Shown: piece by piece, positions 9,683 to 37,513 of the stretch
Numbering within the stretch: the first letter of the stretch is position 1
Layout of the letters: the number at the start of each line of letters is the position of its first letter
DNA from: Desulfurococcales archaeon
Lineage (GTDB): Archaea > Thermoproteota > Thermoprotei_A > Sulfolobales > Desulfurococcaceae
Length of the DNA: 42,497 nucleotides
Assembly (NCBI GenBank): GCA_015520735.1
Contig: WAPN01000029.1
Coordinates: 1-42,497 of the forward strand
Direction of reading: 5' to 3'
Position numbers and translations under genes: made by a program
The notes under the pieces: model-generated
What the model saw: the letters and a program-made list of their open reading frames with translations, nothing else
What the model was told of the DNA's origin: nothing
The model's database searches: none

Positions 9683-9976
9683 TTGACAGATTTATGGATG
9701 ATGTTTATAATTGTATCTATACCGCTCTACATTGTAGCCTTCATACTCTATGCTATAAGGGGGTTCAGGGGCCCCACTGTATTTGATTCAACAATATCAA
9801 TAGATGCACTTTGCTACGATGTGTCGGCTTTCATGGTTATTTTAAGTGTTTACTTCCGATCATACTTGTTGCTCGGCGCCGGGATACTCCTCGCTTTATG
9901 GGCGTACATCCTTGACGTCGTAATCGCCCGCTACTATGATAGGCTCACACGTATAGGTGATAGTGGGGGAGATTAA
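9683..9976 (+). CDS. mnhF: MnhF/MbhB-like antiporter subunit
   Basis: This 97-residue protein has three predicted membrane helices and the MnhF/MrpF pattern: a short N-terminal helix, the RGFRGPTVFDSTISIDAL loop, then two helices. It is a small subunit of Mrp-type Na+/H+ antiporters and of the related membrane-bound hydrogenases. GGTG at 9672-9675, seven bases before TTG 9683, supports the TTG start; ATG at 9698 or 9701 is the alternative. Its stop overlaps the start of mnhG by one base. It is the first gene of a 17-gene run. Confidence 0.85.
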   Translation: MTDLWMMFIIVSIPLYIVAFILYAIRGFRGPTVFDSTISIDALCYDVSAFMVILSVYFRSYLLLGAGILLALWAYILDVVIARYYDRLTRIGDSGGD

Positions 9977-10335
9977 TGGATCTAGGTGGAATCGTCTTAT
10001 CGATTATCGGTGGAGTAATTATATTTGTTGGAGGACTCTTCGATCTCATAGCGGCTCTAGGTGTCAACAGGTTCCCTGACTTCTACACTAGGTTGCATGC
10101 CATAACAATTGGTACGATCGGCGGGGCGGTCTACCCCATAATAGGCTCGGCGATCCTTGTTTTCGGCGTGCCCGGCTTATCCCTTGGTGTGAGGCTCTCG
10201 TTTGCTCTACCTATGCTAGTCATCGCATCACTAATACTGATTACGGCGCCTACTGGAAGCCACGCAGTCGCCAGAGCTGCATATAGGTCAGGCCTCAAGC
10301 CTTATAGACGTGTCTCCGAGGAGGTGAAGAAATAG
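9976..10335 (+). CDS. mnhG: MnhG/MbhC-like antiporter subunit
   Basis: This 119-residue, three-helix protein has the family hallmark GVNRFPDFYTRLHA near residues 29-42 and LITAPTGSHAVARAA near 86-101. It is a structural subunit of the Mrp cation/proton antiporter module. It is tightly coupled to mnhF (one-base overlap) and followed at once by the next gene. The basic C-terminal tail is probably cytoplasmic. Confidence 0.92.
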   Translation: MDLGGIVLSIIGGVIIFVGGLFDLIAALGVNRFPDFYTRLHAITIGTIGGAVYPIIGSAILVFGVPGLSLGVRLSFALPMLVIASLILITAPTGSHAVARAAYRSGLKPYRRVSEEVKK

Positions 10336-10593
10336 TTGATCCCGGTGCTCCACCTAGTAATGCTCGCAGTTATACTCGGCGTCTCCTTTATAACGATATT
10401 CTTGATGGTGTTCGAGAGGGATCTGCTTAAGATGATTGTTTTGTCGGCTGCGCAGTCTACATTCTATGCGATAGTCCTGTACATATTATTGGTCCCGGAC
10501 GTAGTCCTTGCCTACATCGCCGTCGCAGTCGGAATATATACTGCACTGTTAATGTTCGCAGTCAAAAAGACGGAGAGGTTTGAGGAGGCATGA
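10336..10593 (+). CDS. MbhD-like (DUF4040) antiporter subunit
   Basis: This 85-residue, three-helix protein belongs with MbhD and the DUF4040 domain, equivalent to part of the C-terminal region of MrpA (the MrpA tail/NuoJ-like region). It contains FERDLLKMIVLSAAQS and DVVLAYIAVAVGIYTALL, where the Ala-rich helix after a charged turn is typical. The start is TTG at 10336 with GAGGTG about 10 nt upstream, inside the end of mnhG. Its stop overlaps the next start by four bases. Confidence 0.85.
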   Translation: MIPVLHLVMLAVILGVSFITIFLMVFERDLLKMIVLSAAQSTFYAIVLYILLVPDVVLAYIAVAVGIYTALLMFAVKKTERFEEA

Positions 10594-11375
10594 GGGTAAC
10601 AGGTCTTATTGCGGCTATCTCGATATTGATAGTATTGTTTGCATTGGCGTATGGTCTAGTCGTACTGGGTATTAGCGGTCCGCCCGCCCCCGTCAAACTG
10701 AGGCTATTAGGCGAGAAATACCTGTACTACATGATCAATCCCGCAACGAAATACTTTACCGCGGAATCCCCTGAGGGCGTATCAGCAATACTCTGGGACT
10801 ATCGTGGGCTAGATACGCTTTATGAGACAATGGTTTTATTCGGCGCCATCATAGGTGCGATCCTCGTATATAGGGAGTACCTGTATAGCGAGCCGAGGAA
10901 GACCGGGAAGATCTATGGCTTAAGTCACATTGTAAGGACAGTGTCCAAGATCATTATTTGGCTGACAATTATTATAGCGGTCGCCTTCGGCTTTACGGGG
11001 CAGATAACCCCCGGCGGAGGATTCATTGGAGGCGCTGCATTCGCTGTTGCACCTGTCCTGCTAGTCCTAGTGTATACGCTGGGCTATGCACGCAGGCTAG
11101 GATTAACGCATAGAAGAGCACTTCTCCTTAGAGCAAGTTTTCTCCTACTACTATTACTGGTTATCGTCACGCCTCTAATCGCCGGCGGATACATATTCCA
11201 GAACCAGGCCAAGCCCGGATCGGCTTTCAGCTTCCCCGGTAGATTCATTGACTCAACACCCCTCGGCGGCAGTATATTCTTCTTAAACCTATTCGAGCTT
11301 TTTGCCGTCGCGGGAGCCTTTACGGTGGCCTTTATCCTGCTTGGAGTGATCGCGAGTCTTAAGGAGGGTGAGTAG
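10590..11375 (+). CDS. mnhB: MbhE-MnhB (MbhF) fusion antiporter subunit
   Basis: This 261-residue protein fuses two modules that are separate genes in classical Mbh clusters. Residues 1-100 match MbhE, with DYRGLDTLYETMVLFGAI at about 70-87. Residues ~115-261 match MnhB/MbhF, with the diagnostic TGQITPGGGFIGGA at about 136-149. About six helices are expected. In Mrp complexes these parts link the antiporter-like subunits to each other. ATGA overlap with the previous gene indicates translational coupling. Confidence 0.9.
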   Translation: MRVTGLIAAISILIVLFALAYGLVVLGISGPPAPVKLRLLGEKYLYYMINPATKYFTAESPEGVSAILWDYRGLDTLYETMVLFGAIIGAILVYREYLYSEPRKTGKIYGLSHIVRTVSKIIIWLTIIIAVAFGFTGQITPGGGFIGGAAFAVAPVLLVLVYTLGYARRLGLTHRRALLLRASFLLLLLLVIVTPLIAGGYIFQNQAKPGSAFSFPGRFIDSTPLGGSIFFLNLFELFAVAGAFTVAFILLGVIASLKEGE

Positions 11376-11792
11376 ATGATGGGTATAGGCGAGGTTTTCT
11401 GGCTATACATATGGCTCATAATTATGGCTAATATGGGCTTGGCCATATATGGTTTGATCATGAGGCCCAATATACTGAAGAAGATCGCTTGCCTGACGGT
11501 TCTAGCTGACACTAGCTTCATAGTCTTAGCGTTCATCGGGTACAGGTTCAAGTATCCTGTATCGCCATATATAATGACTAACTGGGCCCCTAATAATGCA
11601 ACCATCACGCACTTCATTAGTGAAAGCGTCGATCCTCTCCCCCCAACACTTACCATAACCGCTGTTGTAATAAATCTATCAATAACAATACTCCTTGTAT
11701 TCCTGGCCATAAGACTGTATGAGGTATACGGTACGCTGGACGTCAAGAAAATAGCTATGATCAAGAAGGAGCTCAGGGGTGGGGAAAAATGA
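11376..11792 (+). CDS. mnhC: MnhC/MbhG (NuoK-like) antiporter subunit
   Basis: This 138-residue, three-helix protein is related to NuoK. The C-terminal helix pattern LPPTLTITAVVINLSITILL (about 87-106) is the MnhC signature that lines the ion path. A longer loop between helices 2 and 3 makes it somewhat larger than bacterial MnhC (about 115 residues). The gene lies directly after mnhB with no spacer and overlaps mnhE by four bases. Confidence 0.9.
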   Translation: MMGIGEVFWLYIWLIIMANMGLAIYGLIMRPNILKKIACLTVLADTSFIVLAFIGYRFKYPVSPYIMTNWAPNNATITHFISESVDPLPPTLTITAVVINLSITILLVFLAIRLYEVYGTLDVKKIAMIKKELRGGEK

Positions 11793-12289
11793 GGGCAAGA
11801 TATATAGCTGTATGGCTTGCAGGAATCTTCATCTACTTCCTAATAGTCGCAAGGATAACGTTGTTCGACCTAGTCGTAGCACCAATAATATCCATGGTCG
11901 CGGCTTTGATCATGGGCGGCGAAGTGGTTAAGAAACCCTACAAAGCATTCTCCCCGAAGAGATGGCTGTACGGACTAGCGTACATGTTGTACTACTTGCT
12001 CATTGTCGAGCCGACCTGCCACCTACGAGTAGCCTCAATGGTGTTGGGGCTCAGGGATTACAGGCCTGACATAGTTGAGGTTTCATTCGACTATAGAACA
12101 GACTACGCAATAGCCGCTACAGCTAACTCTATAACCAATACGCCGGGAACCATAGTAGTAGACATCGATCCTAGGAACAAGAAATACTACGTGCACTGGC
12201 TTGAAGCCTATACGCGTGATCCCCGTGTAGCTAGGGAGAAGATAATCTCGGTTTTTGATAAGTGGATCAAGAGGATCTTCGAGGATTGA
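11789..12289 (+). CDS. mnhE: MnhE/MbhA-like antiporter subunit
   Basis: This 166-residue protein has two or three N-terminal helices and a soluble C-terminal domain. The family pattern is visible in NSITNTPGTIVVDIDP (about 117-132) followed by YYVHWLEA. It is the non-NuoL-type subunit E of Mrp antiporters. The start overlaps mnhC and its stop shares bases with the start of mnhD (TGATG), so translation is coupled throughout. Confidence 0.92.
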   Translation: MRARYIAVWLAGIFIYFLIVARITLFDLVVAPIISMVAALIMGGEVVKKPYKAFSPKRWLYGLAYMLYYLLIVEPTCHLRVASMVLGLRDYRPDIVEVSFDYRTDYAIAATANSITNTPGTIVVDIDPRNKKYYVHWLEAYTRDPRVAREKIISVFDKWIKRIFED

Positions 12290-13866
12290 TGGAGATGGAG
12301 TCCTTCATACCCGTACTCACGCCGATCATCAGCTTGGTCGGAGCAATACTGTTGGCTCTGTTCAGCGTAACCTTAAAGTCTAGAAGGGTAGTTGACACAT
12401 TATTCCTGGCTACAACTGTAGTCACAGCGGTAATGACAGGATACGTAGCGTACACTGTCTTCCGGTTTAACGAGACCCTAGTATATGGGTCTGGAGGATG
12501 GCTTCCACCACTAGGGATAGTCTATATCGTGGATAAGCTGTCAGCAACTATGGCCCTACTGTCATCGCTGATAATCCTGTTAATAGCGGTTTACTCGATC
12601 GGGTACTTCGGAGGCAAAGAGCATGGGATCCACTATCTCTACGTACTGATATTACTTATGTCGTCAGCGCTTATCGGCATATACTATACAGGTGATCTAT
12701 TCAACTTCTTCGTCATGATAGAACTAATGGCCGTAACCGCCTACGCTCTCGTGGGCTACCATAAGAGCAAAGGAGAAGCTGTCGAGGCAGCACTAAAGTA
12801 TGGCATGATAGCTTGTCTGGCAGGGATACTGCTGTTTCTAGGAATAGGCTTCATATACGCTTACATAGGCACGTTGAGCATACCTGATTTGTCAGCGAAG
12901 ATTCTCGGCTTACCGACACCGATGAACATGTTCAGCGGCAACACGGCGGTCGAGGCTGCACCCCTGCTCCTCATAGTCGGTCTAATAGTCTGGTCCCTGA
13001 TGCTGGAATCGGCTGCTTTCCCGCTCCACTTCTGGCTCCCAGACGCACACTCTGAGGCCCCCTCACCTGTATCCGCACTATTATCCGGCCTTGTTGTGAA
13101 CGCTGGACTGTACGGGCTGATAAGGCTGTTCTACACGGTATTGTCCGAGGGAAGAAACGCCGTCAGCGGGTTATCAGTCATACTCGATATCCTGATAGTC
13201 CTGGGATGCCTCGGCGCATTATATGCATCGGTAATGATGCTTATAGAGAGCGATATAAAGAGGATCATTGCTTACAGCACGGTGATGCACGTATCCCTCA
13301 TCATTATCGGTATAAGTATTGGGACGAAGTACGCCCTGGCTGCCTCGATATATCATTTCATAACACATTCCATATCCAAGGCCTTAGCGTTCCTATCCGT
13401 CGGAGTATTAGTTTCAGCTGCAGGCACGAGGAACATCAGGGATTTAAAAGGATTTGCTAAGCTCTATCCAGGGGCCTCGGCAGGCATGATCATCGCTATG
13501 CTAGGGCTTGCCGGCGTACCTCCTCTGGGTACGTTCCCGAGCAAATTGTTATTGATAGCCGCGTCAGTGGGCGCTGGCAACATAGGCGCCGCGCTAATAA
13601 TAATCATTACAAGCGCTATAGCGGCCATCGGGTATTTCAGAATAATAAACCTCCTCGTCAACGAGGCCCCCGTCAAGGCGGGCATGTTTAGAGCAGGGCG
13701 GACAATCAAGGCGTCAATAACGATACTATGCATCCTAGTAGTACTTGTAGGCTTAGCCCTTCCACTCCTCTCGCAGCTCTCAACCAGTATCTCAGGACAA
13801 CTATTCAATCCCACAAACTATATAGGATCCGTGAAAGGCATCATAGAGCGCTTCCTCGGCCACTAG
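12289..13866 (+). CDS. mnhD: MnhD-like (NuoN/NuoM family) ion-translocating subunit
   Basis: This proton-conducting antiporter-like protein of about 525 residues has roughly 14 helices. It keeps the key elements of the family: Glu in FVMIELMAVTAYALVGY, and HFWLPDAHSEAPSPVSALLSG around the broken helix. I choose ATG 12289 (MEMESFIPV), which overlaps the mnhE stop, over an earlier in-frame GTG at 12262. It closes the Mrp-type half of the operon. A gap of about 115 nt with its own TATA-like box follows. Confidence 0.92.
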   Translation: MEMESFIPVLTPIISLVGAILLALFSVTLKSRRVVDTLFLATTVVTAVMTGYVAYTVFRFNETLVYGSGGWLPPLGIVYIVDKLSATMALLSSLIILLIAVYSIGYFGGKEHGIHYLYVLILLMSSALIGIYYTGDLFNFFVMIELMAVTAYALVGYHKSKGEAVEAALKYGMIACLAGILLFLGIGFIYAYIGTLSIPDLSAKILGLPTPMNMFSGNTAVEAAPLLLIVGLIVWSLMLESAAFPLHFWLPDAHSEAPSPVSALLSGLVVNAGLYGLIRLFYTVLSEGRNAVSGLSVILDILIVLGCLGALYASVMMLIESDIKRIIAYSTVMHVSLIIIGISIGTKYALAASIYHFITHSISKALAFLSVGVLVSAAGTRNIRDLKGFAKLYPGASAGMIIAMLGLAGVPPLGTFPSKLLLIAASVGAGNIGAALIIIITSAIAAIGYFRIINLLVNEAPVKAGMFRAGRTIKASITILCILVVLVGLALPLLSQLSTSISGQLFNPTNYIGSVKGIIERFLGH

Positions 13867-13983: not shown

Positions 13984-14604
13984 TTGGCCGTATCTGATAA
14001 ACCGATGGTCTACATAGATCCTACGAGATGCGTGGGATGCCGATCCTGCGAGATAGCCTGTGCAGTAGAACATTCACAAAGCAAGCACCTTTTCTTCGCC
14101 ATCAAGGAGTATCCGAGGCCAAAGGCTAGGATAAGGGTTGTGTACCTATGGGATCTAGGCCTCCCCTCACCCCTGAACTGCCGCCACTGCGAACAAGCAC
14201 CGTGTATAGAGGTCTGCCCGACAAGGGCTTTGGAGAGAGATCAAGATGATGCCGTTGTGCTTAATCCCTTGAAGTGTATCGGTTGCCTCACCTGCGGTGT
14301 TGCATGTCCATTCGGCGTGCCAGAACTCGATGTTTTCAACAAGATAATGGTGAAGTGCGATCTCTGCCCTGATAGGAGAGCGGAGGGTCTCCCACCTGCG
14401 TGTGTCGAGGCCTGCCCAACCGGGGCTCTGATGTACGGTACCGTAGGTGAAGTTATGAGGAGGCGTAAAGAGCTGGTAATGAGGAAAGTCTATGAGTCCA
14501 GGAAGGAAGGCGTCAGATCCTATATGATCTTTTCGCCAGAGGCTAAAACACCTCTTCACATCCTCGCAGAGAAGACCCGTACATCTAGATGGTTTGAGTG
14601 GTGA
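13984..14604 (+). CDS. cooF: CooF/HycB-like polyferredoxin electron-transfer subunit
   Basis: This protein of about 206 residues has four Cys groups, each able to hold a [4Fe-4S] cluster: CVGCRSCEIAC, CRHCEQAPCIEVC, CIGCLTCGVAC, and CDLCP with a later CVEAC. This is the CooF/HycB/DmsB arrangement, an electron relay between a catalytic subunit and a membrane partner. The start is set at TTG 13984 because AGGTG (13971-13975) stands eight bases upstream; TTG 13963 is the alternative. It overlaps the following CooS-like gene by four bases (GTGA), so the two are almost certainly made and assembled together. Confidence 0.88.
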   Translation: MAVSDKPMVYIDPTRCVGCRSCEIACAVEHSQSKHLFFAIKEYPRPKARIRVVYLWDLGLPSPLNCRHCEQAPCIEVCPTRALERDQDDAVVLNPLKCIGCLTCGVACPFGVPELDVFNKIMVKCDLCPDRRAEGLPPACVEACPTGALMYGTVGEVMRRRKELVMRKVYESRKEGVRSYMIFSPEAKTPLHILAEKTRTSRWFEW

Positions 14605-16451
14605 TCCCGGGCTTGACCGAGAAGGCGTATATTGGTTTAAAAATTAAGGGGTACGTCTCAATTACCCCAGACGTAAATGAGCTCGTTAAGAAGGCGGATC
14701 TAGAAGGCGTTGATACCGTCTGGCATAGGTTCCAGTATCAGCAACCCCAATGCGGGTTCGGACTTACCGGTGTATGCTGTAGGCACTGTAACACCGGACC
14801 ATGCAGGGTAGATCCTTTCGGTTATGGTTTCCCGACTGGTACGTGTGGAGCCAGCCCGGATCTCATAGCTTCAAGGGATTTACTTGATCTAGTGGTTCAT
14901 GGGGCCACGACGAGGTTGCAGGAAGCACTGATTATGATAAATACCGCCAAGGCCGTGGCGGAAGGGAGAACGAAAGACTATGGTCTAAAGAACCCGGAGA
15001 GACTCCACGAGCTAGCGGACACACTAGGGCTGAAGGCCGAAAAAGACCTTGATCTTCTTAAGTCCCTAGCTGAAACGCTTGAGACAGAGATCCATAGGCT
15101 TACGGATGAGCCACTGCTAACAGCTGTTAAGCTTGTACCGGAAGAAATTGTAGAGATATGGGAGAAAAACGATCTACTGCCCAAGGGATTTTCAAGAGAA
15201 CTTATGGATGCAAACTATAGGTCAAACATGGGAACAGACTCTGATCCAATCAGTGTAGTGAAGCAGGCTATTAGGATATCAATACTCGACGGCCTCCTAG
15301 CCACGTTCACAACGACGATTATGGATGAGATCCTGCTCGGCGATAAGGCGCCCGGAAAAGGCCGTAGCGGGCTTGGAGTCATTAGTCCCGATAACGTCAA
15401 TATATTCATTAGGGTCATGCCTGTCTTTGCTGGCAAGATAAAGATGGCGGCACAGGATCCAAAGCTTTTAGAAATGGCGAGAAAAGCGGGAGCAAAGGGC
15501 ATATCCGTCATTATTCCAAGCGGCAACATGATCATGCAGGAACTACCGATTATAACAGGGCTTACCGAGGTAATGGTCGTTGATCACCAGTGCATATATC
15601 CCCACATAGTCGAAATCGCGAGGAAATACCATACAAAGATCGTTATTGTCGACCCAGTGGCTAAGCTGCCAGGAGCCATACATATGCCAATGACACCCGA
15701 GAACGCTTCAAGAGTTGCCAAAGAGATAGTTAGGCTCGCGGTCAAGAACTATGTCAATAGGAAACCCGAGAAGATCTATAGGCCCACTCACATCTCGGAG
15801 TTCACTACCAACCCGACTCTAAACGGGCTAAAGAAAGCATTCGGGGGGTCCTTCAAGCCCATAGCCGACGCGATAAGGGACGGTAGTATAAAAGGAGTAG
15901 TGGTAATGCATCACTGTACTAACCCGAAGGTTAAGCACAACTATGGCCACTACACTATCGCTAAGAAATTGATCGAGAACGACGTGCTGGTATTGACTAT
16001 GGGGTGTTCAATGATGGCGGCCGCGTTGACAGGCCTTGCAAAGCCGGATTCAATTAAGCTTGCAGGCAACGGGCTCATGAGGCTTCTAGCGGCCTTCAAC
16101 CTACCGCCAGTAATACCGCTAGGACCATGCGTTGAAACCACAAGGGAGCTACTCATACTATACGAGATAAGCAAGGAGCTAGGCACACCATTCAATAAGG
16201 CCCCATTCGCAGCGAGCGCGCCGGAGTGGATGAACGGCAAAGCACTAAGCGCGGTGCTTTACTACATGGCGCATGGTTTGCTCAGCCATGTCGGGACAGT
16301 ACCGCAGATCCTAGCGGCACCGGGTGTGGAGAAGTTCCTAACGGAGGAAATGGAGAAGATCACGGGAGGAAAGCTAGTCATTGAGCCAGATCCAGACGCT
16401 GCCGCGGATATAATCCTAAAGCACCTCGAGAAGAGAAGCCTTACCCCATAA
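14601..16451 (+). CDS. cooS: CooS-like (Ni-CO dehydrogenase family) protein with incomplete C-cluster
   Basis: This ~616-residue protein is homologous to the anaerobic Ni-CODH catalytic subunit. The N-terminal Cys set for the D- and B-clusters is intact (C52, C60, C61, C64, C69, C83, numbered from GTG 14598). Of the C-cluster ligands, the equivalents of Cys333 (VVDHQCIYP), Cys446 (HHCTNP), Cys476 (LTMGCSM) and Cys526 (LGPCVET) are present, as is the active-site Lys (SAPEWMNGKA). The HGHEP His (His261) is replaced in IRVMPVFAG. The segment that carries Cys295 in classical CooS (GICCTGNE) reads VIIPSGN and is about 17 residues shorter. The His-rich proton path after the B-cluster is also absent. 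No cooC follows. CO oxidation is therefore doubtful. The protein may act on another substrate or serve as an electron scaffold. Confidence 0.88.
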   Translation: MIPGLTEKAYIGLKIKGYVSITPDVNELVKKADLEGVDTVWHRFQYQQPQCGFGLTGVCCRHCNTGPCRVDPFGYGFPTGTCGASPDLIASRDLLDLVVHGATTRLQEALIMINTAKAVAEGRTKDYGLKNPERLHELADTLGLKAEKDLDLLKSLAETLETEIHRLTDEPLLTAVKLVPEEIVEIWEKNDLLPKGFSRELMDANYRSNMGTDSDPISVVKQAIRISILDGLLATFTTTIMDEILLGDKAPGKGRSGLGVISPDNVNIFIRVMPVFAGKIKMAAQDPKLLEMARKAGAKGISVIIPSGNMIMQELPIITGLTEVMVVDHQCIYPHIVEIARKYHTKIVIVDPVAKLPGAIHMPMTPENASRVAKEIVRLAVKNYVNRKPEKIYRPTHISEFTTNPTLNGLKKAFGGSFKPIADAIRDGSIKGVVVMHHCTNPKVKHNYGHYTIAKKLIENDVLVLTMGCSMMAAALTGLAKPDSIKLAGNGLMRLLAAFNLPPVIPLGPCVETTRELLILYEISKELGTPFNKAPFAASAPEWMNGKALSAVLYYMAHGLLSHVGTVPQILAAPGVEKFLTEEMEKITGGKLVIEPDPDAAADIILKHLEKRSLTP

Positions 16452-16491: not shown

Positions 16492-17937
16492 ATGATTGTG
16501 CCACTAGCAGTTTTAGTTGGTTTACCTTTAGCTGCTTTTATATTGTCTATCATATTAGGCGAAAAACACGTTGGAAAAGCAAATATACTCTTTAGCGTTA
16601 TCTTGATATTTTACGGAATAGTGTTTTATTTATACTATGCCTATCTAGGCTTCCCAATAACACATATCAAACTATATAGTACTGGCACGCTCGGCGAAGT
16701 TTACGGGTTCATAGTTGATCCCTTCTCGGCGAGCATGGCCCTCATAATATCGATTGTCGCGGGGGCCATAATGCTTTACAGCACAAATTATATGTCACCG
16801 CAGAACAACTATCACCCAGTAGTTACTGGTAAGCCCAGGTTCTATGCATGGATGTATCTCTTCATTTTCTCGGTAATACTCTTCGTTTTCTCCTCCAACC
16901 TGATACAGCTCCTGATAAACTTTGAGCTAATGAGCCTTGCATGCTGGGGCCTAATATCATACTACGGTACGCCCGAGGCCGCCAGATCATCTTATAAAAT
17001 GCTGGTAATAACTCATCTCGGCGCATATGGAGGCCTTGGGGCAGCGATAGGGTACCTTGCATTAAACTATGGAAGCGTATCATTAAGCATATTGAGCTCC
17101 TTAAGTCCGTCCGGCAAGCTACTAGTGTTGGGACTGATAATGTGGGCGGCCATAACTAAATCGTCCCAGTTCCCAACATATTCATGGCTTCCTGACGCAA
17201 TGGTTGCCCCAACCCCTACATCCGCTCTCCTCCATGGCGCCACTATGATCGAGATGGGGCCCTACCTAGTAGCTAGGATAATCTACTCTATGGGTAGTGT
17301 CCCCGTGAATGCACAGTATATTATACTGGTACCGATAGTCTTTTCAGTTGTTATCTCCACCCTCATGTACCCCGTGCTGAAGGATGGAAAAAGACTACTT
17401 GCCTACTCCACTATAGCCGAGGCAGCCATAATGTACTTCACGGTATCCCTAATGATATATTCTCTCCGGCTCGGATTATCCCTGTTCCTGCTCTATTTCA
17501 CCGCCCATGCTTTCCTCAAGAGCCTCGGCTTCTTATTGATGGGTAGCGCAGGTTACTCTGTCGGAACGCATGATCTCACGAGGATAATAGGGTATTTCTC
17601 GTCTAGTAAGTTCATGTACAATCTATTGTTGTGCGTTTTACTGGGACTCTCGGGTGTTCCATTGTTTTCTATTGCAAAGGCCTACATGGTGATATTGTCC
17701 GGCCTTGTTCTCGACAAGCCGATCTACTTAACGGCTCTCTTGGCGGTACTCGCTGAATCCGCGGTGCTACTAGCCGTGAGCATGCACTGGTTTGGTAGTA
17801 GAAGAGCATCCGCTAGGTCGATCCATAGTCTTCCCCCGTATATGTACGCATCGTTCATAATACTATTAGTAGGACTGTATCTTTCCCAGATATGCGCTTT
17901 CACAGTAATGATACCAAGCATATATAGGGTGATGTAG
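16492..17937 (+). CDS. NuoL-type antiporter-like membrane subunit
   Basis: This 481-residue, ~14-helix protein is closest to NuoL/MnhA-type subunits. It has LLINFELMSLACWGLISYY with the pump Glu, KSSQFPTYSWLPDAMVAPTP at the broken helix, and SALLHGATMIEMGPYLVARI. These are the residues expected for proton or sodium translocation. GGAG about ten bases before ATG 16492 supports the start. A T-rich run at 16454-16459 follows cooS, but the operon appears to continue. It is the first of three consecutive antiporter-like genes. Confidence 0.88.
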   Translation: MIVPLAVLVGLPLAAFILSIILGEKHVGKANILFSVILIFYGIVFYLYYAYLGFPITHIKLYSTGTLGEVYGFIVDPFSASMALIISIVAGAIMLYSTNYMSPQNNYHPVVTGKPRFYAWMYLFIFSVILFVFSSNLIQLLINFELMSLACWGLISYYGTPEAARSSYKMLVITHLGAYGGLGAAIGYLALNYGSVSLSILSSLSPSGKLLVLGLIMWAAITKSSQFPTYSWLPDAMVAPTPTSALLHGATMIEMGPYLVARIIYSMGSVPVNAQYIILVPIVFSVVISTLMYPVLKDGKRLLAYSTIAEAAIMYFTVSLMIYSLRLGLSLFLLYFTAHAFLKSLGFLLMGSAGYSVGTHDLTRIIGYFSSSKFMYNLLLCVLLGLSGVPLFSIAKAYMVILSGLVLDKPIYLTALLAVLAESAVLLAVSMHWFGSRRASARSIHSLPPYMYASFIILLVGLYLSQICAFTVMIPSIYRVM

Positions 17938-17940
17938 AAT

Positions 17941-19302
17941 ATGGTTCAGCCGCCCTACATAGCGCTGTTGCTGTTGATCGTTTACCCATTATTGGTCATC
18001 ACATCGATCCTAGCTGATGCCTCGAAGAAAAAGCTGATCGGGCTTATATCGACGACCACGTACTCTCTGCTAAGCATTATACTAGTCTTGGCCATAGTTA
18101 TTGGAGGAATACCCGCTAGAATAAAACTGCCATTAGGGATCGGCATCTACGTGGATACTTTTTCCTTAGTATACGTGATGACATCATCCATCATAGTATT
18201 GGCAGCAGGCATTTACATGTATGTAAGATATAGTGGTGTAAGTGATGAGAGATTCGCAAAGTACGGTATCCTATCCCTCCTACTATATGTTACATCACTG
18301 CTCGTACTGACTGACAACTGGCTGGTCTTCGCAATCCTATGGGAGATCATTAGTTTTATAGCCTATTACATGATTCTATCAACATCCAGGGATACCGGCC
18401 CCCACTACACATATTATCTAACAATGCATACAACCGGTTTCATGATACTGGTAGGTGCCGCTCTCCTATACGCCGACAACGCCTGTAATATGACGAGAGG
18501 TATTGGTGAAAGCCTTGTTGTCCCAGCACTATTGCTCGCCACCGGGTTCATGAGCAAAGCCGGCATCTTTCCGTTCCATTATTGGGTTCAACAAGTATAT
18601 GATAACATAGACCCCCTTTACTCGGCACTTTTCTCGGGCATAGTCGACCCGCTGGGGATATACGGCCTATACAGGCTTGCCTCGGCCTCGAGCTTACCCG
18701 AGAACTACGTGTGGCTACTGATCTCCCTATCCCTAATCTCGATGACAATCTCTGTCATATGGTATTGGGGTGCCAGGAGACTTTCCTCGATGCTTGCATG
18801 GTCGACTATATATAATATGTCCTGGATGATGCTCGCTCTGACACTTCCAGGTGCGGGAGCACTAGCGCTTATCCTACCACTATATATTATGTGCCACGGC
18901 CTCTCCAAGGCATCGGCGTTCATGACGATGGGCATATATGGGGACGATTACTGCCGCATCAGGAAGCTCTACCCGCATGCCGGGTTCTTGCTCGCCGCAT
19001 CCATACTCGCGATCGAAGGTGCTCCACCGTTCAATCTATTCATAGCCAAGATAATGATACTTAAGAATGCGATTGCCTCGCTGGGCGTGGTTGCCGCGAT
19101 ACCTATTATCGGATGGTTTATTAGCAGCCTCTTTTTCTTCAGGATAATGGCTTCAATATTGTTTCCGAGGAGCAACATATCTGAGGAAAGCATAGGCTCC
19201 TCTCTGAGCTTCTTAGATGCATTGATCGCCTTGATGCTCGTGCTCAATGTCTTCTCCTACTGGATAATATCCTGTATCGCAGGGGGAGGTGCGATCATTT
19301 GA
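17941..19302 (+). CDS. Divergent NuoN/NuoM-like membrane subunit
   Basis: This 453-residue protein has ~13-14 helices. The Glu region is kept (FAILWEIISFIAYYM) and so is the Lys of the broken helix (SKAGIFPFHYW). After that the usual LPDAH stretch reads VQQVYDNIDPLY, and the next helix has VDPLGIYGLYRL where active pumps carry a Lys. It therefore looks like an antiporter-like subunit with a partly lost ion path, perhaps structural. It begins three bases after the previous stop and overlaps the next gene by four bases. Confidence 0.82.
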   Translation: MVQPPYIALLLLIVYPLLVITSILADASKKKLIGLISTTTYSLLSIILVLAIVIGGIPARIKLPLGIGIYVDTFSLVYVMTSSIIVLAAGIYMYVRYSGVSDERFAKYGILSLLLYVTSLLVLTDNWLVFAILWEIISFIAYYMILSTSRDTGPHYTYYLTMHTTGFMILVGAALLYADNACNMTRGIGESLVVPALLLATGFMSKAGIFPFHYWVQQVYDNIDPLYSALFSGIVDPLGIYGLYRLASASSLPENYVWLLISLSLISMTISVIWYWGARRLSSMLAWSTIYNMSWMMLALTLPGAGALALILPLYIMCHGLSKASAFMTMGIYGDDYCRIRKLYPHAGFLLAASILAIEGAPPFNLFIAKIMILKNAIASLGVVAAIPIIGWFISSLFFFRIMASILFPRSNISEESIGSSLSFLDALIALMLVLNVFSYWIISCIAGGGAII

Positions 19303-21338
19303 TCATGTATCTCGTCGGCACCCTATTCGGCGCTATGGTGTCAGCCTATATCCTGGCCATACTGTCTTCTCTCGTGCTTAGAAGCAACTACACATTATCG
19401 ATCAGGGCTGGGCTTTCATTTGTATTTATCGCATCACTATCCCAGCTAATATTGTCATCCATTATCGTGGTCACGGGGATCAGCGCTTGTCTCTATGGCT
19501 ATTTCTGCATAGATAGTTTCTCGGCCTTATTCCTAATAGTGATAGGGCTAGCAGGCCTATCGATAAGCCTCTACGGGATGGAGTACATGAAGATCTACAG
19601 GGGGCTAGGCGGGGCATGGACGTATTCCCTAATGGTTTCACTATTCCTTTTCTCAATGGCAATGCTGTGTATATCCAATAATTTACTCTTATTCGTGTTT
19701 TTCTGGGAGATAATGACCTTGACGAGCATTATACTGATAGGATGGGAGTACGGGAAAGAATATGTTGCCAGGGCAACCAAGCAGTATCTCTACACGATGC
19801 TACTACTGAACAGTTTCCCCCTGATACTCGGAGTCTCTATGCTATGGGCTAGCTACGGGACTCTGCAACTTAGCTCCTTAGAGAAAATGATTGATACCCA
19901 CAACCTCGCATGGTTGCTGTCAATAGTTATGCTCTACATCGCCTTCACGGCCAAAGCCGGTCTATATCCACTCCACTTTTGGCTCCCGGATGCACACCCA
20001 GCAGCGCCAAGTAATATATCATCCCTTCTCAGCGGTGTAATGATAAAGATGGGTGCCTATGGGTTATTCGGCGTGATGCTGAGGTATCTGCATCCCCCTA
20101 TAATTCTTTATTATTTGTTGCTTATCCAGGCGTTGTTGTCGATCTTCTGGGGCTCGATCAAGGCGATAAGCGAGGATCACGCCAAGAGGCTTCTAGCCTA
20201 CTCGAGCGTCTCCCAAATAGGCTATATAATGGTTCCCCTGAGCCTCTCAGCGATTTCATTGGGTTTTAACAAGGCACTTTCAGCGCTTTTGCTCGCAGCC
20301 GGATTGGCTTATCTATTCGCTCACAGTATTTTTAAGACCCTCCTGTTCCTGACGAGTGGCTGCTACATATATGTTTACGGATCAGCCGATCTGGACAACG
20401 TGGCCAATATTGGCATGGTGAGCAAGACCGCCATGATCAGTATCATAATAGGTTCTCTAAGCCTCGCCGGGCTACCGCCCCTGCTCGGCTATATCGCTAA
20501 GCTGTCGATATACGCTTCGATCCTAAGGGGAGCCTCCCCACTGTACAGTATCATCGCAGCAATAGTGATAGCGCTGTCTCCGCTGACACTACTGTATTCT
20601 GTCAAATATATGGCTCCAGCGCTCAGGCTTGTAGAGAAAAAAATGATAAGGGAAAAGATAGGGTACCCAATGACTGCTGGAATGCTGATACCTGTTGTAT
20701 CGCTTGTATTGTTCGGCCTATACTCGATCTTCGGCTTATTCACGGATATATCCTGGCGTTACTACAGCCCCGTAACTAGTACTGCCCCAATAGAGGCCGG
20801 GCTGATCCATGTTATTTCCCCCTACGGCTACTACCTACCATTAATAGTTTCCGCCTCGATCGCTCTAGGTTTACTGCTAGGATACATCGATAGGGGCAGA
20901 GACGTTGTCACCAGTAGAATATGGACGACCGGATACATTATTCCGCCCAACAAGCACCTTTTAAGGCCCAGCTACCTATACATAGAATTCTCAAAGCTCT
21001 TTAAGCCGGCCATGGGATTTTCGCACGAGGTCTACGAGTGCCTTGTATGGAGGATACCATCGAAAATCGTTTACTCCGGCATAGCCTCAAGGATAACCCG
21101 GTTTTTCGGCGGTCTAAACGGCTGGTTCGCCACCAAGGCACGGGGGCTCGCTGAAAAATATTCGAGAATAAAGGAGTTCAAGCTGGACGAGCTCGCCGGA
21201 TCCTCGGTCTTGGCGGCAGTAAGGATGTTCGGCAATATGGCTAGGCTGATCATAGTCTCCCCGATAGCCCTGTTTACCACAGCTTTGCTTATACTCTCGA
21301 TAATAGTCCTCATAATACTCTTGTTCTGGTGGGTGTAG
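19299..21338 (+). CDS. hycC: HycC/HyfB-type proton-pumping membrane subunit
   Basis: This large antiporter-like subunit (679 residues) keeps a full set of pump residues: FVFFWEIMTLTSIILIGWEYG, AKAGLYPLHFWLPDAHPAAPSN and SSLLSGVMIKMGAYGLFGVM. After the ~14-helix core comes a C-terminal extension (about 540-679) with an amphipathic stretch and a terminal membrane helix (LFTTALLILSIIVLIILLFWW). This resembles the lateral arm of NuoL and HycC/HyfB. It lies directly before the NuoH-like gene, as in formate hydrogenlyase and CO-dependent hydrogenase clusters. Confidence 0.88.
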   Translation: MIMYLVGTLFGAMVSAYILAILSSLVLRSNYTLSIRAGLSFVFIASLSQLILSSIIVVTGISACLYGYFCIDSFSALFLIVIGLAGLSISLYGMEYMKIYRGLGGAWTYSLMVSLFLFSMAMLCISNNLLLFVFFWEIMTLTSIILIGWEYGKEYVARATKQYLYTMLLLNSFPLILGVSMLWASYGTLQLSSLEKMIDTHNLAWLLSIVMLYIAFTAKAGLYPLHFWLPDAHPAAPSNISSLLSGVMIKMGAYGLFGVMLRYLHPPIILYYLLLIQALLSIFWGSIKAISEDHAKRLLAYSSVSQIGYIMVPLSLSAISLGFNKALSALLLAAGLAYLFAHSIFKTLLFLTSGCYIYVYGSADLDNVANIGMVSKTAMISIIIGSLSLAGLPPLLGYIAKLSIYASILRGASPLYSIIAAIVIALSPLTLLYSVKYMAPALRLVEKKMIREKIGYPMTAGMLIPVVSLVLFGLYSIFGLFTDISWRYYSPVTSTAPIEAGLIHVISPYGYYLPLIVSASIALGLLLGYIDRGRDVVTSRIWTTGYIIPPNKHLLRPSYLYIEFSKLFKPAMGFSHEVYECLVWRIPSKIVYSGIASRITRFFGGLNGWFATKARGLAEKYSRIKEFKLDELAGSSVLAAVRMFGNMARLIIVSPIALFTTALLILSIIVLIILLFWWV

Positions 21339-21342
21339 AGCC

Positions 21343-22293
21343 GTGAACGAGTGCCTGCTCGAAATGATCTGGGTAATCGTCCTAATACTGCTCGGGGCTT
21401 TTATAGCCCCGATCCTTGATGGGCTGAGACGCAAGATCAGGGCCAAGATCCAGAGGAGGATCGGGCCGCCGTTGCTGCAGACCTTCTATGATTTATCGAA
21501 GCTCTTCAACCTACAGCCCGTGCTACCCTTCAAGAACATGTTCATAGTCGTGTCACCCTATATTGCATTCGCAACACTGCTGGTATTATCGGCGGCAGTG
21601 CCATTGCCTTATGTTCCAGGGTTCAGCACAGTGTTTGATGCCATCACGCTCCTGTATACATTGTTGTTTGTATCCGTGCTCGTTGTTCTTCTCGGGCTAG
21701 CATTGCCGAATCCCTACTCAAACGCTGGATCGACCAGGGAGGCACTGACTATAACGGTGTTCGAGGTTTTCATCGCCTTCACGATCGTCGGTATTGCGTA
21801 TAGTATGAAGACGCTGAACCTCTACGGCCTCGCGGTGCTGTACGGCTTCCCCAAGAACTATCTGAGGATAAGCACTCTTTTCCTATCAGCATCGCTCTTC
21901 ATACTAGCATATATCGAATCCGCCTACACACCATTCGATATGGGCGAAGCGGAAACAGAGGTGCTGGGAGGACCATACCTAGAGTTCAGCGGGAGATACT
22001 ATGGGTTATTCCTCTACGCCCTGCTCCTTAAGAGATACATACTCCTATCACTCCCAGTATCCCTGGTCCTCGTATCCCCTATAGCAATGATGCTTAGAGC
22101 CTTTATCCCAGAACCACTGCTATCAGTGGTTGTCCTTGGTGTTTTTGTCCTATTCCTGTTCATTACAATGAGCGTCTACTCTGTGGTAGAGGCGCTCTAC
22201 CCTAGATACAGAGTTGACTTGGCGTTTAAGCCTCTGATCCTTGCGTCCGTGATACCATTTATCGGGCTTGTCATGGGGTGGCTTGGTTGGTAG
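21343..22293 (+). CDS. hycD: NuoH/HycD/MbhM-like membrane anchor of hydrogenase
   Basis: This 316-residue protein with ~8 helices is the NuoH-type subunit that docks the soluble hydrogenase arm on the membrane. Family features are GLRRKIRAKIQRRIGPPLLQTFYDLSKLF near residues 28-55, and FDMGEAETEVLGGPYLEFSGRYYG near 203-226, the acidic loop lining the coupling chamber. The start is GTG at 21343, four bases after the preceding stop. It overlaps the next gene's possible upstream start. Confidence 0.93.
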   Translation: MNECLLEMIWVIVLILLGAFIAPILDGLRRKIRAKIQRRIGPPLLQTFYDLSKLFNLQPVLPFKNMFIVVSPYIAFATLLVLSAAVPLPYVPGFSTVFDAITLLYTLLFVSVLVVLLGLALPNPYSNAGSTREALTITVFEVFIAFTIVGIAYSMKTLNLYGLAVLYGFPKNYLRISTLFLSASLFILAYIESAYTPFDMGEAETEVLGGPYLEFSGRYYGLFLYALLLKRYILLSLPVSLVLVSPIAMMLRAFIPEPLLSVVVLGVFVLFLFITMSVYSVVEALYPRYRVDLAFKPLILASVIPFIGLVMGWLGW

Positions 22294-22301
22294 AGTTCTG
22301 G

Positions 22302-24005
22302 ATGAGGAGCATCGAGGATCTGGGAAGAGAAGAAGTGATGAGTATTGTCGATAAGGAGCTCCACGGCCTATACACCGAAAAGTACGCTCCTACAAGAGAT
22401 CTCATAATCTACTTCGCTCCGAGGGAGAATATAAGGGAGATAATAAGGCGGCTGATGATGTTCTCCTACACGAGGCTGAGCGTAATTGTGGGGAATGACG
22501 AGAGGTACTTTAGGCGCGACTTTTCCCTGACATACATAGTATCGTTCGATAAGCAGGATCTCTACATAGGCGTTAGAACGTATTTACCGGAATACGACTT
22601 AGAGATCGCGAGCATAGCAGACATGGTTAAGGCCGCCTGGTGGAATGAGAGGGAGAACAGAGATCTCTACGGCATAGAGTTTATCGGGCTGAAAGATAAG
22701 CGCAAGCTCGTGTTACCTGAGTACTGGCCCGACGACGCGCATCCGTGGAGAAAAGACTACCCCTACAATAAGCCTGTGATGGACTGGAGAGAAGGGCTCC
22801 CAGACTATAAGCCTGTCGGGCGCCACGAGGACCTTGACGTGATAGGTTTGGGGCCTTACCATATGATCAACGACGAGCCTATACATTGGAGACTATATGT
22901 GAAGGGAGAAACAATAGTTGATGCGGAACACAGGGGATTCCATAACTGGAGGGGTATCGAGAAAATAGCGGAGGGGAGGCTAACATATAACCAGATCCCC
23001 TTTATAGCTGAGAGGATATGCGGGATATGCGGGTTTACCCACGCGACATCCTACGTACAGGCTGTGGAGTCTCTAGCTGGCATAGATATCCCTGATCGGG
23101 CGAGATATATCAGGAGCCTCATGCTGGAGATCGAGAGGATCGAGAGCCATCTCCTATGGATCGGGATTGCCTGCCACATACTCGGCTTCGACACAGGCTT
23201 CATGCTTTCGTGGAAGATCCGCGAACACATAATGCACTTGGCAGAGGTGCTAACGGGTAACAGGAAAACATACGGAATGGATATTGTAGGCGGCGTTCGG
23301 AGGGATGTGCTGGGAGATAGGCTGGGCAAGGCAAGGGACTCAGTGAAGAAGATCAGGTACGAGTACAGGGAGCTCTACAACATGCTGATAAACAACTCGA
23401 TACTTGTCAAGAGGACGCGTGGCGTGGGAGTCCTTCCGAGGAATAAGGCTATAAGCTACGGAGTTGTAGGGCCCGTCGCAAGGGCTACCGGGCTAGACAT
23501 AGATGTTAGGAGAGATCATTCCTATGCAGCTTACAAGGAGCTCAGCTTCGATGTACCCGTCTATAGTGAGGGTGACGTCCTAGCTATTACCCTAGTGCGT
23601 CTAGACGAGGTGTTCGAATCCCTCGACCTGATCGAGCAGATCCTAGACGCTCTCCCGGGAGGCCCGCTAGCAGTGGATGTGAAGGATATCCCAGAGAACA
23701 AGGAGGCTGTAGGTGTAGTGGAGGCTCCCAGGGGCGAGGACATACACTATGTTAGGAGCGGCCTGTACAATAAGATCCAGAGATGGAGGGTTAGGGCTCC
23801 CAGCTACGCCAATATACCGCCGGTCAAGGAAATGCTTATCGGGTACAGGCTCGCCGATGCGCCAATAATATATGCATCGGTCGACCCCTGCCTAGCATGT
23901 ACGGAGAGATACCTAGTGATAGATGTCGATACGGGCTCGAAGAAGATCATGACAGACGACGAGCTGAGGGCCAAGTCCAGAAAACTATCCACCAGAATAG
24001 GGTGA
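22302..24005 (+). CDS. hycE: Group 4 [NiFe]-hydrogenase large subunit, NuoC-NuoD fusion (HycE type)
   Basis: This ~567-residue protein has a NuoC domain (about 1-165, ending in WWNERENRDLYGIEF) fused to the NuoD-type catalytic subunit. Both metal-binding pairs are intact: RICGICGFTH (C248, C251, numbered from GTG 22278) and DPCLACTER (C538, C541). This marks a functional Ni-Fe site rather than a complex I quinone site. About 37 residues follow DPCxxC, so there may be little or no maturation cleavage. Start choice is uncertain among GTG 22278, TTG 22287 and ATG 22302; I prefer the ATG. No hydrogenase maturation gene lies in the window, so those must be elsewhere. Confidence 0.92.
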   Translation: MRSIEDLGREEVMSIVDKELHGLYTEKYAPTRDLIIYFAPRENIREIIRRLMMFSYTRLSVIVGNDERYFRRDFSLTYIVSFDKQDLYIGVRTYLPEYDLEIASIADMVKAAWWNERENRDLYGIEFIGLKDKRKLVLPEYWPDDAHPWRKDYPYNKPVMDWREGLPDYKPVGRHEDLDVIGLGPYHMINDEPIHWRLYVKGETIVDAEHRGFHNWRGIEKIAEGRLTYNQIPFIAERICGICGFTHATSYVQAVESLAGIDIPDRARYIRSLMLEIERIESHLLWIGIACHILGFDTGFMLSWKIREHIMHLAEVLTGNRKTYGMDIVGGVRRDVLGDRLGKARDSVKKIRYEYRELYNMLINNSILVKRTRGVGVLPRNKAISYGVVGPVARATGLDIDVRRDHSYAAYKELSFDVPVYSEGDVLAITLVRLDEVFESLDLIEQILDALPGGPLAVDVKDIPENKEAVGVVEAPRGEDIHYVRSGLYNKIQRWRVRAPSYANIPPVKEMLIGYRLADAPIIYASVDPCLACTERYLVIDVDTGSKKIMTDDELRAKSRKLSTRIG

Positions 24006-24011
24006 GTGGCC

Positions 24012-24566
24012 ATGGCAAAGTACTTTGAGAAAACCGACAAATGGGTCGTCACTTTCAAGTACCCACTGGAACCCCTCGAGCCTCCAAGAGAACTGAGGGG
24101 AAAGCCAGAGATAAACCCTGACCTGTGCATCGGGTGCGGTGCATGCGCAGAGGCATGCCCTCCAAACGCCATAACGAAGGAGATTGATTACCGGGAAGGA
24201 TACGCGAAGATAAAGATCTTCTATGGAAGATGCATCTACTGTGGCAGGTGCTGGGAGGTCTGCCCAGAAGGAGCTATAGTTCTCACCAATATTTTCGAGA
24301 TGGCCACGCCGTCGAAGGACGATCTGATCTACGAGGTCAACCTAGAGCTCCACACATGCTCCCGATGTGGCAGGTATACGGAGTTCACTGAGAGACAGGT
24401 TCACAGAGCATACACTCTTCTCACAGGGATACCAAGGGAGAGGAGAAAAGAGCTTCTAGACAGGATGTTCCTCTGCCGGGACTGTAGAAGACAGGTTTTC
24501 TCGCACGACGCACTACGTAATAGGAGGACTGATAAATATGGGAGGGCGTCCCAGACCCCGTTTTAG
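24012..24566 (+). CDS. hycF: NuoI/HycF/MbhN-like 2[4Fe-4S] ferredoxin subunit
   Basis: This ~184-residue protein has two ferredoxin motifs, CIGCGACAEACP (about 41-52) and CIYCGRCWEVCP (about 76-87). A C-terminal CSRC/CRDC quartet (about 118-160) can bind a metal, as in HycF/MbhN. It relays electrons between the CooF-like protein or ferredoxin and the small subunit. ATG 24012 is chosen over GTG 24006 because GGTGAG sits six bases before it. It overlaps the next gene by 29 bases. Confidence 0.92.
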   Translation: MAKYFEKTDKWVVTFKYPLEPLEPPRELRGKPEINPDLCIGCGACAEACPPNAITKEIDYREGYAKIKIFYGRCIYCGRCWEVCPEGAIVLTNIFEMATPSKDDLIYEVNLELHTCSRCGRYTEFTERQVHRAYTLLTGIPRERRKELLDRMFLCRDCRRQVFSHDALRNRRTDKYGRASQTPF

Positions 24567-25263
24567 GAGCGTATGGGTATTCCACGTAGATGCCAGCGCC
24601 TGCAATGGATGTGATATAGAGGTGCTCGACGTCCTGACGCCATTCTATGACGTCGAGAGGTTCGGTGTAAAGCTTGTGCCAACGCCGAGGCAAGCAGATG
24701 CACTACTTGTCAGCGGCTCGGTGAACAGGCAGGCCGTGATAGGTCTTAAGAGAGTATACGAGGCGATGCCGCCCAAACCAAGAATAGTGGCCGCTGTGGG
24801 GGCATGTGCTATCGCTGGGGGGATCTTCTACGACAGCCTAGCAGTGTACGGCGGTGTAGACAAGATAATCCCCGTACACATATACATACCCGGTTGCCCG
24901 CCTAGACCCGAAGCAATACTGTTCGGCCTCGGCCAGCTGCTGGGCCTCGTAAATAAGAAGATCGAGCCGAGAATACTGTATCCGGGAAGACGCGTCCTAG
25001 ACCGCAAGTATGGCGTGCTCTTCAATGAGAGGCTCTATAAGGATCTGAGATATTATCTTACAAGGTATGTGGGCTATTATGATCGCGACTATATACTAGA
25101 TGATCTCCTTGAAATAATAAACAGTTCAAGGACGGTTGAGGAGCTTAGGGAGAAGATCATGGATAAGGCTTCGAGGCTTAAAGACCCGCGGCTAAGAGAA
25201 GTCTATAGCATAGCCGGCGGATACATAGTTGAGAAAATCAGGGAGGAGACAGGGGCTGTATAG
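24538..25263 (+). CDS. hycG: Group 4 [NiFe]-hydrogenase small subunit (NuoB/HycG/MbhJ)
   Basis: This 241-residue protein has the four Cys of the proximal [4Fe-4S] cluster: ACNGCDIE (C22, C25), VGACA (C90) and IPGCPPRPEA (C120). It passes electrons to the NiFe centre in the NuoD-type partner. The C-terminal ~90 residues (from about 150) extend beyond the minimal NuoB fold, are helical and charged, and are of unknown role. The gene is the last recognisable subunit of the operon. Confidence 0.93.
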   Translation: MGGRPRPRFRSVWVFHVDASACNGCDIEVLDVLTPFYDVERFGVKLVPTPRQADALLVSGSVNRQAVIGLKRVYEAMPPKPRIVAAVGACAIAGGIFYDSLAVYGGVDKIIPVHIYIPGCPPRPEAILFGLGQLLGLVNKKIEPRILYPGRRVLDRKYGVLFNERLYKDLRYYLTRYVGYYDRDYILDDLLEIINSSRTVEELREKIMDKASRLKDPRLREVYSIAGGYIVEKIREETGAV

Positions 25264-25570
25264 GGTAAGCATAGAGTACAGGTATAAGAGACACAAGCTA
25301 TCAGCCGAGACCAGGCATTACGAGGTACTATTCGGTGTCATTGAAACTATCGGAGAATATGACGACAAGACAATCTATGATGCAATCAATAAATGTATAA
25401 ACGAGAAATATAGGAAGAATCTTCTAGACAGCATAAGGCTTGGGAAGAATGTCAGGATATACATTAGCGGCGAGGATCTAGGGAAGATATTGGCTGTGCT
25501 AGACCGGGAGGACTGGAAGCCTGTGCCCCGGGAATATGACTACGTTCTTGTACTGGAACATCTAGATTGA
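25229..25570 (+). CDS. Small hypothetical protein at the end of the hydrogenase operon
   Basis: This protein of up to 113 residues is unrecognised: soluble, no Cys pairs, with alternating strands and helices (IYISGEDLGKILAVLDRE near the C-terminus). It overlaps the end of the small-subunit gene, and its stop overlaps that of the convergent regulator at 25562 by nine bases. The start is uncertain. TTG 25229 opens the frame, but the best Shine-Dalgarno sequence (GGGAGGAG, 25241-25248) stands seven bases before a CTG at 25256. A role in assembly or maturation, analogous in position to HycH, is a guess from context. Confidence 0.6.
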   Translation: MRKSGRRQGLYRVSIEYRYKRHKLSAETRHYEVLFGVIETIGEYDDKTIYDAINKCINEKYRKNLLDSIRLGKNVRIYISGEDLGKILAVLDREDWKPVPREYDYVLVLEHLD

Positions 25571-37511: not shown

Positions 37512-37513
37512 CC

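Follow-up and report, generated by a model that had tools for sequence, protein, structure and literature searches.

A CooS homologue without the pendant-iron ligands of the C-cluster in [NiFe]-hydrogenase gene clusters of Thermoproteota

A hydrogenase operon from a Desulfurococcales archaeon encodes a homologue of the carbon monoxide dehydrogenase (CODH) catalytic subunit CooS that has kept the cysteine ligands of the B and D clusters along with the four cysteines of the C-cluster cubane, and that has lost both ligands of the pendant iron. We refer to this protein as CooS* and describe it from a window of 42,497 nucleotides, the whole stretch of DNA that was analyzed (contig WAPN01000029.1). 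The same lesion is present in at least nine archaeal genomes: that of the window, three other Desulfurococcales, and five members of another class of Thermoproteota. Within the hydrogenase complex, CooS* probably either carries electrons or takes part in a redox reaction yet to be recognized. The reading that we tentatively place first is that of a pseudo-CODH that would have lost CO chemistry and that, with an all-cysteine cluster at its C site, would serve as an iron-sulfur electron-transfer subunit.

Results

The protein is a full-length CooS homologue (Table 1), with a prismane domain (PF03063, E 4e-110), a match to PDB entry 6t7j (E 2e-160), and a score of 498 bits against TIGR01702, for which the cut-off is 478. 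The AlphaFold2 model of the window protein, made from alignments of the homologues gathered here, reached a pLDDT of 92.0 and a pTM of 0.92, and the model of a member of the second group, described below, reached 92.7 and 0.93; the fold is thus predicted to be intact in both groups. In Foldseek comparisons, the window model matched the CODH of Thermococcus AM4 (6t7j, a Ni-free structure of protein made without CooC) with a TM of 0.95 at 1.3 Å, and CooS-V of C. hydrogenoformans (7b7q) with a TM of 0.93. Together with gene order, these results agree with the first-pass annotation of this DNA, which had described a conserved but altered CODH fold in a hydrogenase operon.

For comparison with canonical enzymes, residues are numbered as in C. 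hydrogenoformans CODH-II, with the numbering verified individually at the positions concerned. The ligands of a type II D-cluster (C39 and C47) are present as C52 and C60, those of the B-cluster (C48, C51, C56, and C70) as C61, C64, C69, and C83, and the four cubane cysteines are likewise retained. All ten are invariant across the nine CooS* proteins. In the window protein they are the only cysteines, compared with a total of 18 in the canonical paralogue of the same genome, and under random loss the probability of such a cluster-only pattern is about 2.5e-4.

A complete C-cluster set comprises five cysteines and one histidine. CooS* lacks it, as His261 and Cys295 are gone in nine of nine members. 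In the window, the deletion of 15 residues takes out the CCTGNE loop, which contains Cys294 as well as its neighbor Cys295, and one more residue is missing at Asn262. The first-pass annotation had correctly recognized the retained cysteines and the loss of His261 and Cys295, although it put the missing stretch at about 17 residues and mispaired the segment that remains: the counterpart of IIPSGN is the later VPIAGN rather than ICCTGNE, and the CCTGNEVLMRLG segment is absent. Its observation that the histidine proton path is missing also stands, with both His93 and His96 replaced. Loss of His93 in both groups leaves the acid-base pair His93/Lys563 incomplete. More broadly, sites 93, 96, 259-261, 266, 522, 523, 525, and 567-569, in the C-cluster pocket and its neighborhood, hardly vary among 23 canonical CODHs, and both CooS* groups have changes there. 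A substitute His and Cys at the lost positions is what the first-pass annotation had named as evidence against its view; in the alignment, no His or Cys that could replace them has arisen in both groups. Histidines 330, 438, and 559 were gained in the Desulfurococcales proteins alone and, judging from the alignment, are possible lineage-specific ligands.

Table 1. Features of the CooS* operon in the window, with residues of CooS* matched to those of CODH-II
Feature	Position	Strand	Remark
Mrp-type antiporter genes mrpF, G, B, B, C, E, D	9683..13866	+	
cooF-like polyferredoxin, 213 aa	13963..14604	+	
cooS* (pseudo-CODH in the favored reading)	14598..16451	+	617 aa, GTG start overlaps cooF end
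D/B-cluster Cys codons C52, C60, C61, C64, C69, C83	14751..14846	+	kept in 9/9 CooS*
Former proton-path site, His93 to Arg106, His96 to Glu109	14913..14924	+	
Former His259-Gly-His261 site, now Arg272-Val-Met274	15411..15419	+	Arg at 259 invariant, 9/9 CooS*
15-residue deletion junction, residues 304-307 VIIP	15507..15518	+	Cys294/Cys295 loop gone
Cubane Cys C332 (CODH-II C333)	15591..15593	+	
Cubane Cys C440 (CODH-II C446)	15915..15917	+	
Cubane Cys C470 (CODH-II C476)	16005..16007	+	
Cubane Cys C511 (CODH-II C526, Ni ligand)	16128..16130	+	
Lys548 (CODH-II Lys563)	16239..16241	+	kept in Desulfurococcales CooS*, Glu in second group
Group 4 hydrogenase membrane subunits, three antiporter-like and one HyfC/NuoH-like	16492..22293	+	
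[NiFe]-hydrogenase large subunit fused to 30-kDa domain	22278..24005	+	both CxxC motifs present
HyfH-like ferredoxin subunit	24006..24566	+	
HyfI-like small subunit	24538..25263	+	
Small ORF, 113 aa	25229..25570	+	operon-end position kept in two other CooS* operons
Convergent regulator, ModE-type HTH	25562..26695	-	beside two other CooS* operons too

The [Ni-3Fe-4S] cubane of CODH is bound by four cysteines, and the pendant iron has a His and a Cys as its ligands (Wittenborn 2018, PMC6168284). In the D. vulgaris enzyme, the C301S change at the Cys294-type position gave an inactive protein that contained no Ni and in which about 30% of the pendant Fe had shifted into the cubane (PMC6168284). 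CooS* has lost the pendant-iron ligands and this Ni-incorporation cysteine, so the expected product would be a Ni-free, all-cysteine cubane. The first-pass annotation had offered three meanings, namely a different substrate, an altered metal cluster, or an electron scaffold. That the metal cluster is altered is well supported by the pattern of kept and lost ligands. It is improbable, by contrast, that CooS* retains nickel in a [NiFe3S4] heterocubane without the pendant iron and with some CO chemistry left. CooS* does keep the Ni ligand (Cys526) and the three Fe ligands, and in the window's group Lys563 as well. However, the equivalent of Cys294, where mutation in D. vulgaris prevents Ni incorporation (PMC6168284), is deleted, and the pocket residues His93, His96, and Ile567 are changed in both groups. 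Furthermore, no cooC lies in the cluster, and the genome already contains a full CODH operon.

The window operon combines cooF with a group 4 [NiFe]-hydrogenase whose large subunit carries both CxxC pairs (RICGICGFTH and DPCLACTER), as in the CODH/ECH module. The NiFe site is thus intact, as first annotated, and the reported coupling of cooS* to the gene for a CooF-like ferredoxin is seen in their overlap, where cooS* starts (GTG at 14598) a few bases ahead of the cooF stop codon (14602-14604). The absence of a nearby cooC was also confirmed. There is none in the operon, and the sole true cooC found in the genome adjoins the canonical cooS on another contig, within a cooF-cooS-cooC-hyf-Mrp operon (L020; C3). 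In a third Hyf-Mrp cluster (L038, G000:C20), the front end consists of a GltD-like flavoprotein together with a CooF-like protein. Each Hyf-Mrp cluster therefore has a front end of its own, which is canonical CooS on C3, the flavoprotein on C20, and CooS* in the window. This suggests that front ends are interchangeable and that CooS* fills one such place.

Other genes were noted in the same genome. The 113-aa ORF at the end of the operon has no match in Pfam or NCBIfam, and its copies in L015 and L017 show 77% and 33% identity. The convergent regulator has an HTH similar to those of regulators encoded upstream of canonical cooF-cooS operons, but not the Cys motif that these carry at the N-terminus, which suggests that it responds to a different signal. 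Further along the window (33791-38536, minus strand) are CRISPR-Cas genes, including a Cas3-like helicase and Cas5-like and Cas7/Csa2 (DevR) homologues amid unidentified ORFs. Elsewhere, a hydrogenase-like large subunit without CxxC motifs (L040: RFCVEDPDP, LDPCAPDLDR) is encoded at G000:C5:148677-149789 and on G001:C26; in G000 as in G001, the match contains one in-frame TGA.

The Desulfurococcales orthologues, all from MAGs, are 94% (L015), 82% (L016 and L018, one genome), and 63% (L017) identical to the window protein. The second group, from five genomes of one genus in the other class, is 36-37% identical to it and has likewise lost His261 and the same loop, with Arg at 259. A contig scan, which reaches close relatives, returned Desulfurococcales members only, and the second group came from whole-genome searches; outside the Thermoproteota, the distribution is as covered by the scan for close relatives. 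Gene order in the Desulfurococcales, as far as contigs extend, is cooF, cooS*, three antiporter-like genes, hyfC, hyfG, hyfH, and hyfI. In the second group it is cooF, cooS*, hyfG, hyfH, and hyfI, with no membrane subunits, and in one genome (L082) cooF is inverted and lies a few kb off. Linkage to cooF and hydrogenase genes is retained in all CooS* clusters seen, and both CxxC motifs of the large subunit are intact wherever readable. The first-pass annotation had advised a search for this gene order in other Thermoproteota, and cooF-cooS*-hydrogenase clusters were found in both classes.

Two sets of genes in the second group deserve separate mention. A SagB-type nitroreductase-family gene directly follows cooS*-hyfG-hyfH-hyfI in two genomes (L080 9622-10335 and L081 114-827). 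In addition, a distantly CooC-like ATPase that carries a CxC motif adjoins apparent pgk/gap genes in genomes where CooS* is present and canonical CooS was not detected (L095 4702-5532 and L096 5241-6116, the latter on the minus strand). With such an ATPase encoded, Ni handling is possible in the second group, and for that group we no longer take a complete lack of CooC as a sign that the protein is Ni-free.

Between the window and L015, cooS* has a dN of 0.029 and a dS of 0.888 (dN/dS about 0.033), and hyfG has a dN of 0.027 and a dS of 0.596; synonymous sites are saturated in more distant pairs. The similarity of the two ratios implies that CooS* is roughly as constrained as the catalytic subunit of the hydrogenase and, on this measure of substitution, it is under strong purifying selection. 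Chance, sequencing error, and assembly chimerism are ruled out, because eight other genomes share the lesion and because dN/dS is low. A decaying, pseudogene-like paralogue is scarcely credible, despite the loss of catalytic residues. Selection contradicts it, and so do a reading frame that is open in nine genomes, the invariance of the ten cluster cysteines, and the preserved gene order.

Constraint is unevenly distributed along the protein. Between the two groups, the D/B segments are the best conserved (66% against a background of 34%), and the surroundings of H93, C526, and K563 fall below background, at 11-31%. Within each group, the C-site segments are conserved above background (65-77% against 60% for the window and L017); these segments differ between groups.

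Canonical CooS and CooS* occur together in G000, G001, and G447, as would be expected if CooS* were a non-catalytic partner of the canonical protein, whether as a heterodimer, a regulator, or a decoy. We regard this as very unlikely. In four second-group genomes with CooS* (69-88% complete), canonical CooS was not detected, so that CooS* seems not to need one as a partner. Furthermore, the dimer-bridging D-cluster cysteines are kept for a homodimer, and CooS* has a cooF and a hydrogenase of its own.

In a tree computed with ligand columns removed, the nine CooS* proteins group as a single clade (88/98) nested among archaeal clade-E-like CODHs, which include AM4 CODH and the genome's own canonical paralogue. 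By this placement, CooS* is derived from archaeal CooS. Both CooS* branches are long, leaving one group out shifts the placement of the other slightly, and a double origin was not rejected by an AU test (p 0.13). The partner proteins of one group, hydrogenase as well as CooF, are not sister to those of the other. On these phylogenetic grounds two histories remain, namely a single origin with exchange of partners or parallel loss in two hydrogenase-linked CODHs. The searches also recovered other divergent CODHs. Several Thermoproteota have CooS-V-like CODHs with Glu at 295, a CODH-V-like ligand pattern (L067-L076), and in a deep CODH-like group (L077-L079), the loop has diverged to GCTCVGQD/E, the Lys563 position is occupied by Gln, and the His261 region reads INIMITGHQH.

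Discussion

CooS* is most readily compared with the clade-E-type CODH of AM4, which it resembles in sequence (41% identity), in fold, and in its B and D clusters. Similarly, its operon contains the cooF, hydrogenase, and Mrp partners of CODH/ECH/Mrp operons. Unlike CooS*, AM4-type CODH keeps all five C-cluster cysteines, His261, the proton-path histidines, and Lys563, and the genome's own AM4-type operon includes a cooC, whereas the CooS* operon does not. The CODH/ECH module differs in the same respects, with a complete C-cluster motif and a nearby cooC (the rule in PMC6344411). Replacement of both pendant-iron ligands with retention of the four other cysteines has been described for structural groups A-4 and A-6 of Inoue 2019 (PMC6344411). 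Those proteins, however, are of Cdh-type clade A and carry D/P or N/S substitutions for His/Cys1, whereas CooS* has a loop deletion, and they are not reported with NiFe hydrogenases (PMC6344411), to which CooS* is linked.

CooS-V, a clade D protein, has a CODH fold without CO chemistry through changes at position 295, as CooS* probably does. Its hybrid cluster is ligated by His259, Glu295, and Glu556 in its redox states (Jeoung 2022, PMC9311411; PMC10502027), which shows that the CODH scaffold can carry such a cluster (PMC9311411). One might therefore picture CooS* with an Fe/S/O hybrid cluster like that of CooS-V or the hybrid cluster proteins (HCPs), acting as an H2-fed scavenger of hydroxylamine, NO, or other oxidants; the four common cysteines and the similarity in fold to CooS-V would fit. 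We hold out little prospect for this. In CooS-V, Cys295 became Glu, and His259 and Glu556 were kept. In CooS*, the loop with position 295 is deleted, Arg occupies 259, and the Glu556 position (His561 in CODH-II) is Asn or Ala. In addition, CooS* branches with the archaeal clade-E-like CODHs, apart from CooS-V, and lies in a hydrogenase operon, whereas the gene context of CooS-V has no obvious C1 links. HCPs belong to the same superfamily (PF03063) and have the four Cys positions in common with CooS*, but their His and both Glu ligands are missing from it, and the sequence match is weak (E 0.01-0.2; 26 bits against the HCP profile, with a cut-off of 361). The comparison with HCPs in the first-pass annotation thus fails, as CooS* has neither of the two Glu ligands of the hybrid cluster.

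In the electron-transfer role that we tentatively favor, CooS* would not interconvert CO and CO2, and its C site would hold an all-cysteine cubane, most likely [4Fe-4S]. The homodimer would act as an Fe-S adaptor, exchanging electrons, via its B and D clusters, with CooF and the HyfI/HyfG core, which in the window operon would be coupled to ion-pumping membrane and Mrp subunits. On the other side, the likely partner would be a low-potential carrier such as ferredoxin, and our guess is that it might gain access where loss of the loop has left an opening. Hydrogen evolution, which the first-pass annotation took as the direction of electron flow, may be that direction. We prefer electron transfer to catalysis because, between the groups, the D/B segments are kept and the surroundings of H93, C526, and K563 are conserved below background, and because the pocket residues are changed in both. 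The absence of cooC from the CooS* cluster, when it stands next to cooS in the canonical operon of the same genome, also counts in its favor. Nevertheless, a pure relay would need an accessible second entry point, and above-background conservation of the C site within groups is what an active pocket would also show. Moreover, hydrogenases of this type normally accept electrons from ferredoxin, with no adaptor like CooS*.

A possible, though less likely, alternative is that CooS* catalyzes a reaction on a new substrate. The rebuilt C site would then accommodate a different or larger molecule, whose electrons would be exchanged with the hydrogenase via B, D, and CooF. Pocket conservation within groups and the front-end position keep this reading alive. 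CooS* occupies the place where an electron-donating enzyme is expected, and C-site segments that are conserved within groups and different between them would suit pockets tuned to different ligands. In R. rubrum CODH, changing the C-cluster His (H265V) raised the efficiency of hydroxylamine reduction from 450 to 1600 per M per s (Jeoung 2022, PMC9311411), and the SagB-type gene after the operon in two second-group genomes points the same way. Yet with a cysteine at each of the four cubane corners there is no obvious open site, the acid-base residues are gone, and the groups share no new candidate ligand or catalytic His or Cys. Somewhat less likely again is that a CODH scaffold rebuilt on an all-cysteine, possibly heterometal, cubane catalyzes a redox reaction new to the CODH/HCP superfamily, driving or driven by the ion-pumping NiFe hydrogenase.

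Only complete-motif CODHs have been stated to accompany NiFe hydrogenases (PMC6344411), and the CooS* family is an exception to that rule. A 2026 marine survey left out sequences with changed C-cluster cysteines (PMC13240472), and filtering of this kind in published surveys has left the group overlooked; in the open-access papers searched, we found no description of a CooS*-like protein in Thermoproteota. Because the window protein scores above the NCBI cut-off for "CO dehydrogenase catalytic subunit," such genomes would be credited with a second CO enzyme where there is probably none. More generally, CooS* provides a natural test of the role of the pendant iron of the C-cluster, and it also probes the possible uses of the CODH scaffold without that iron.
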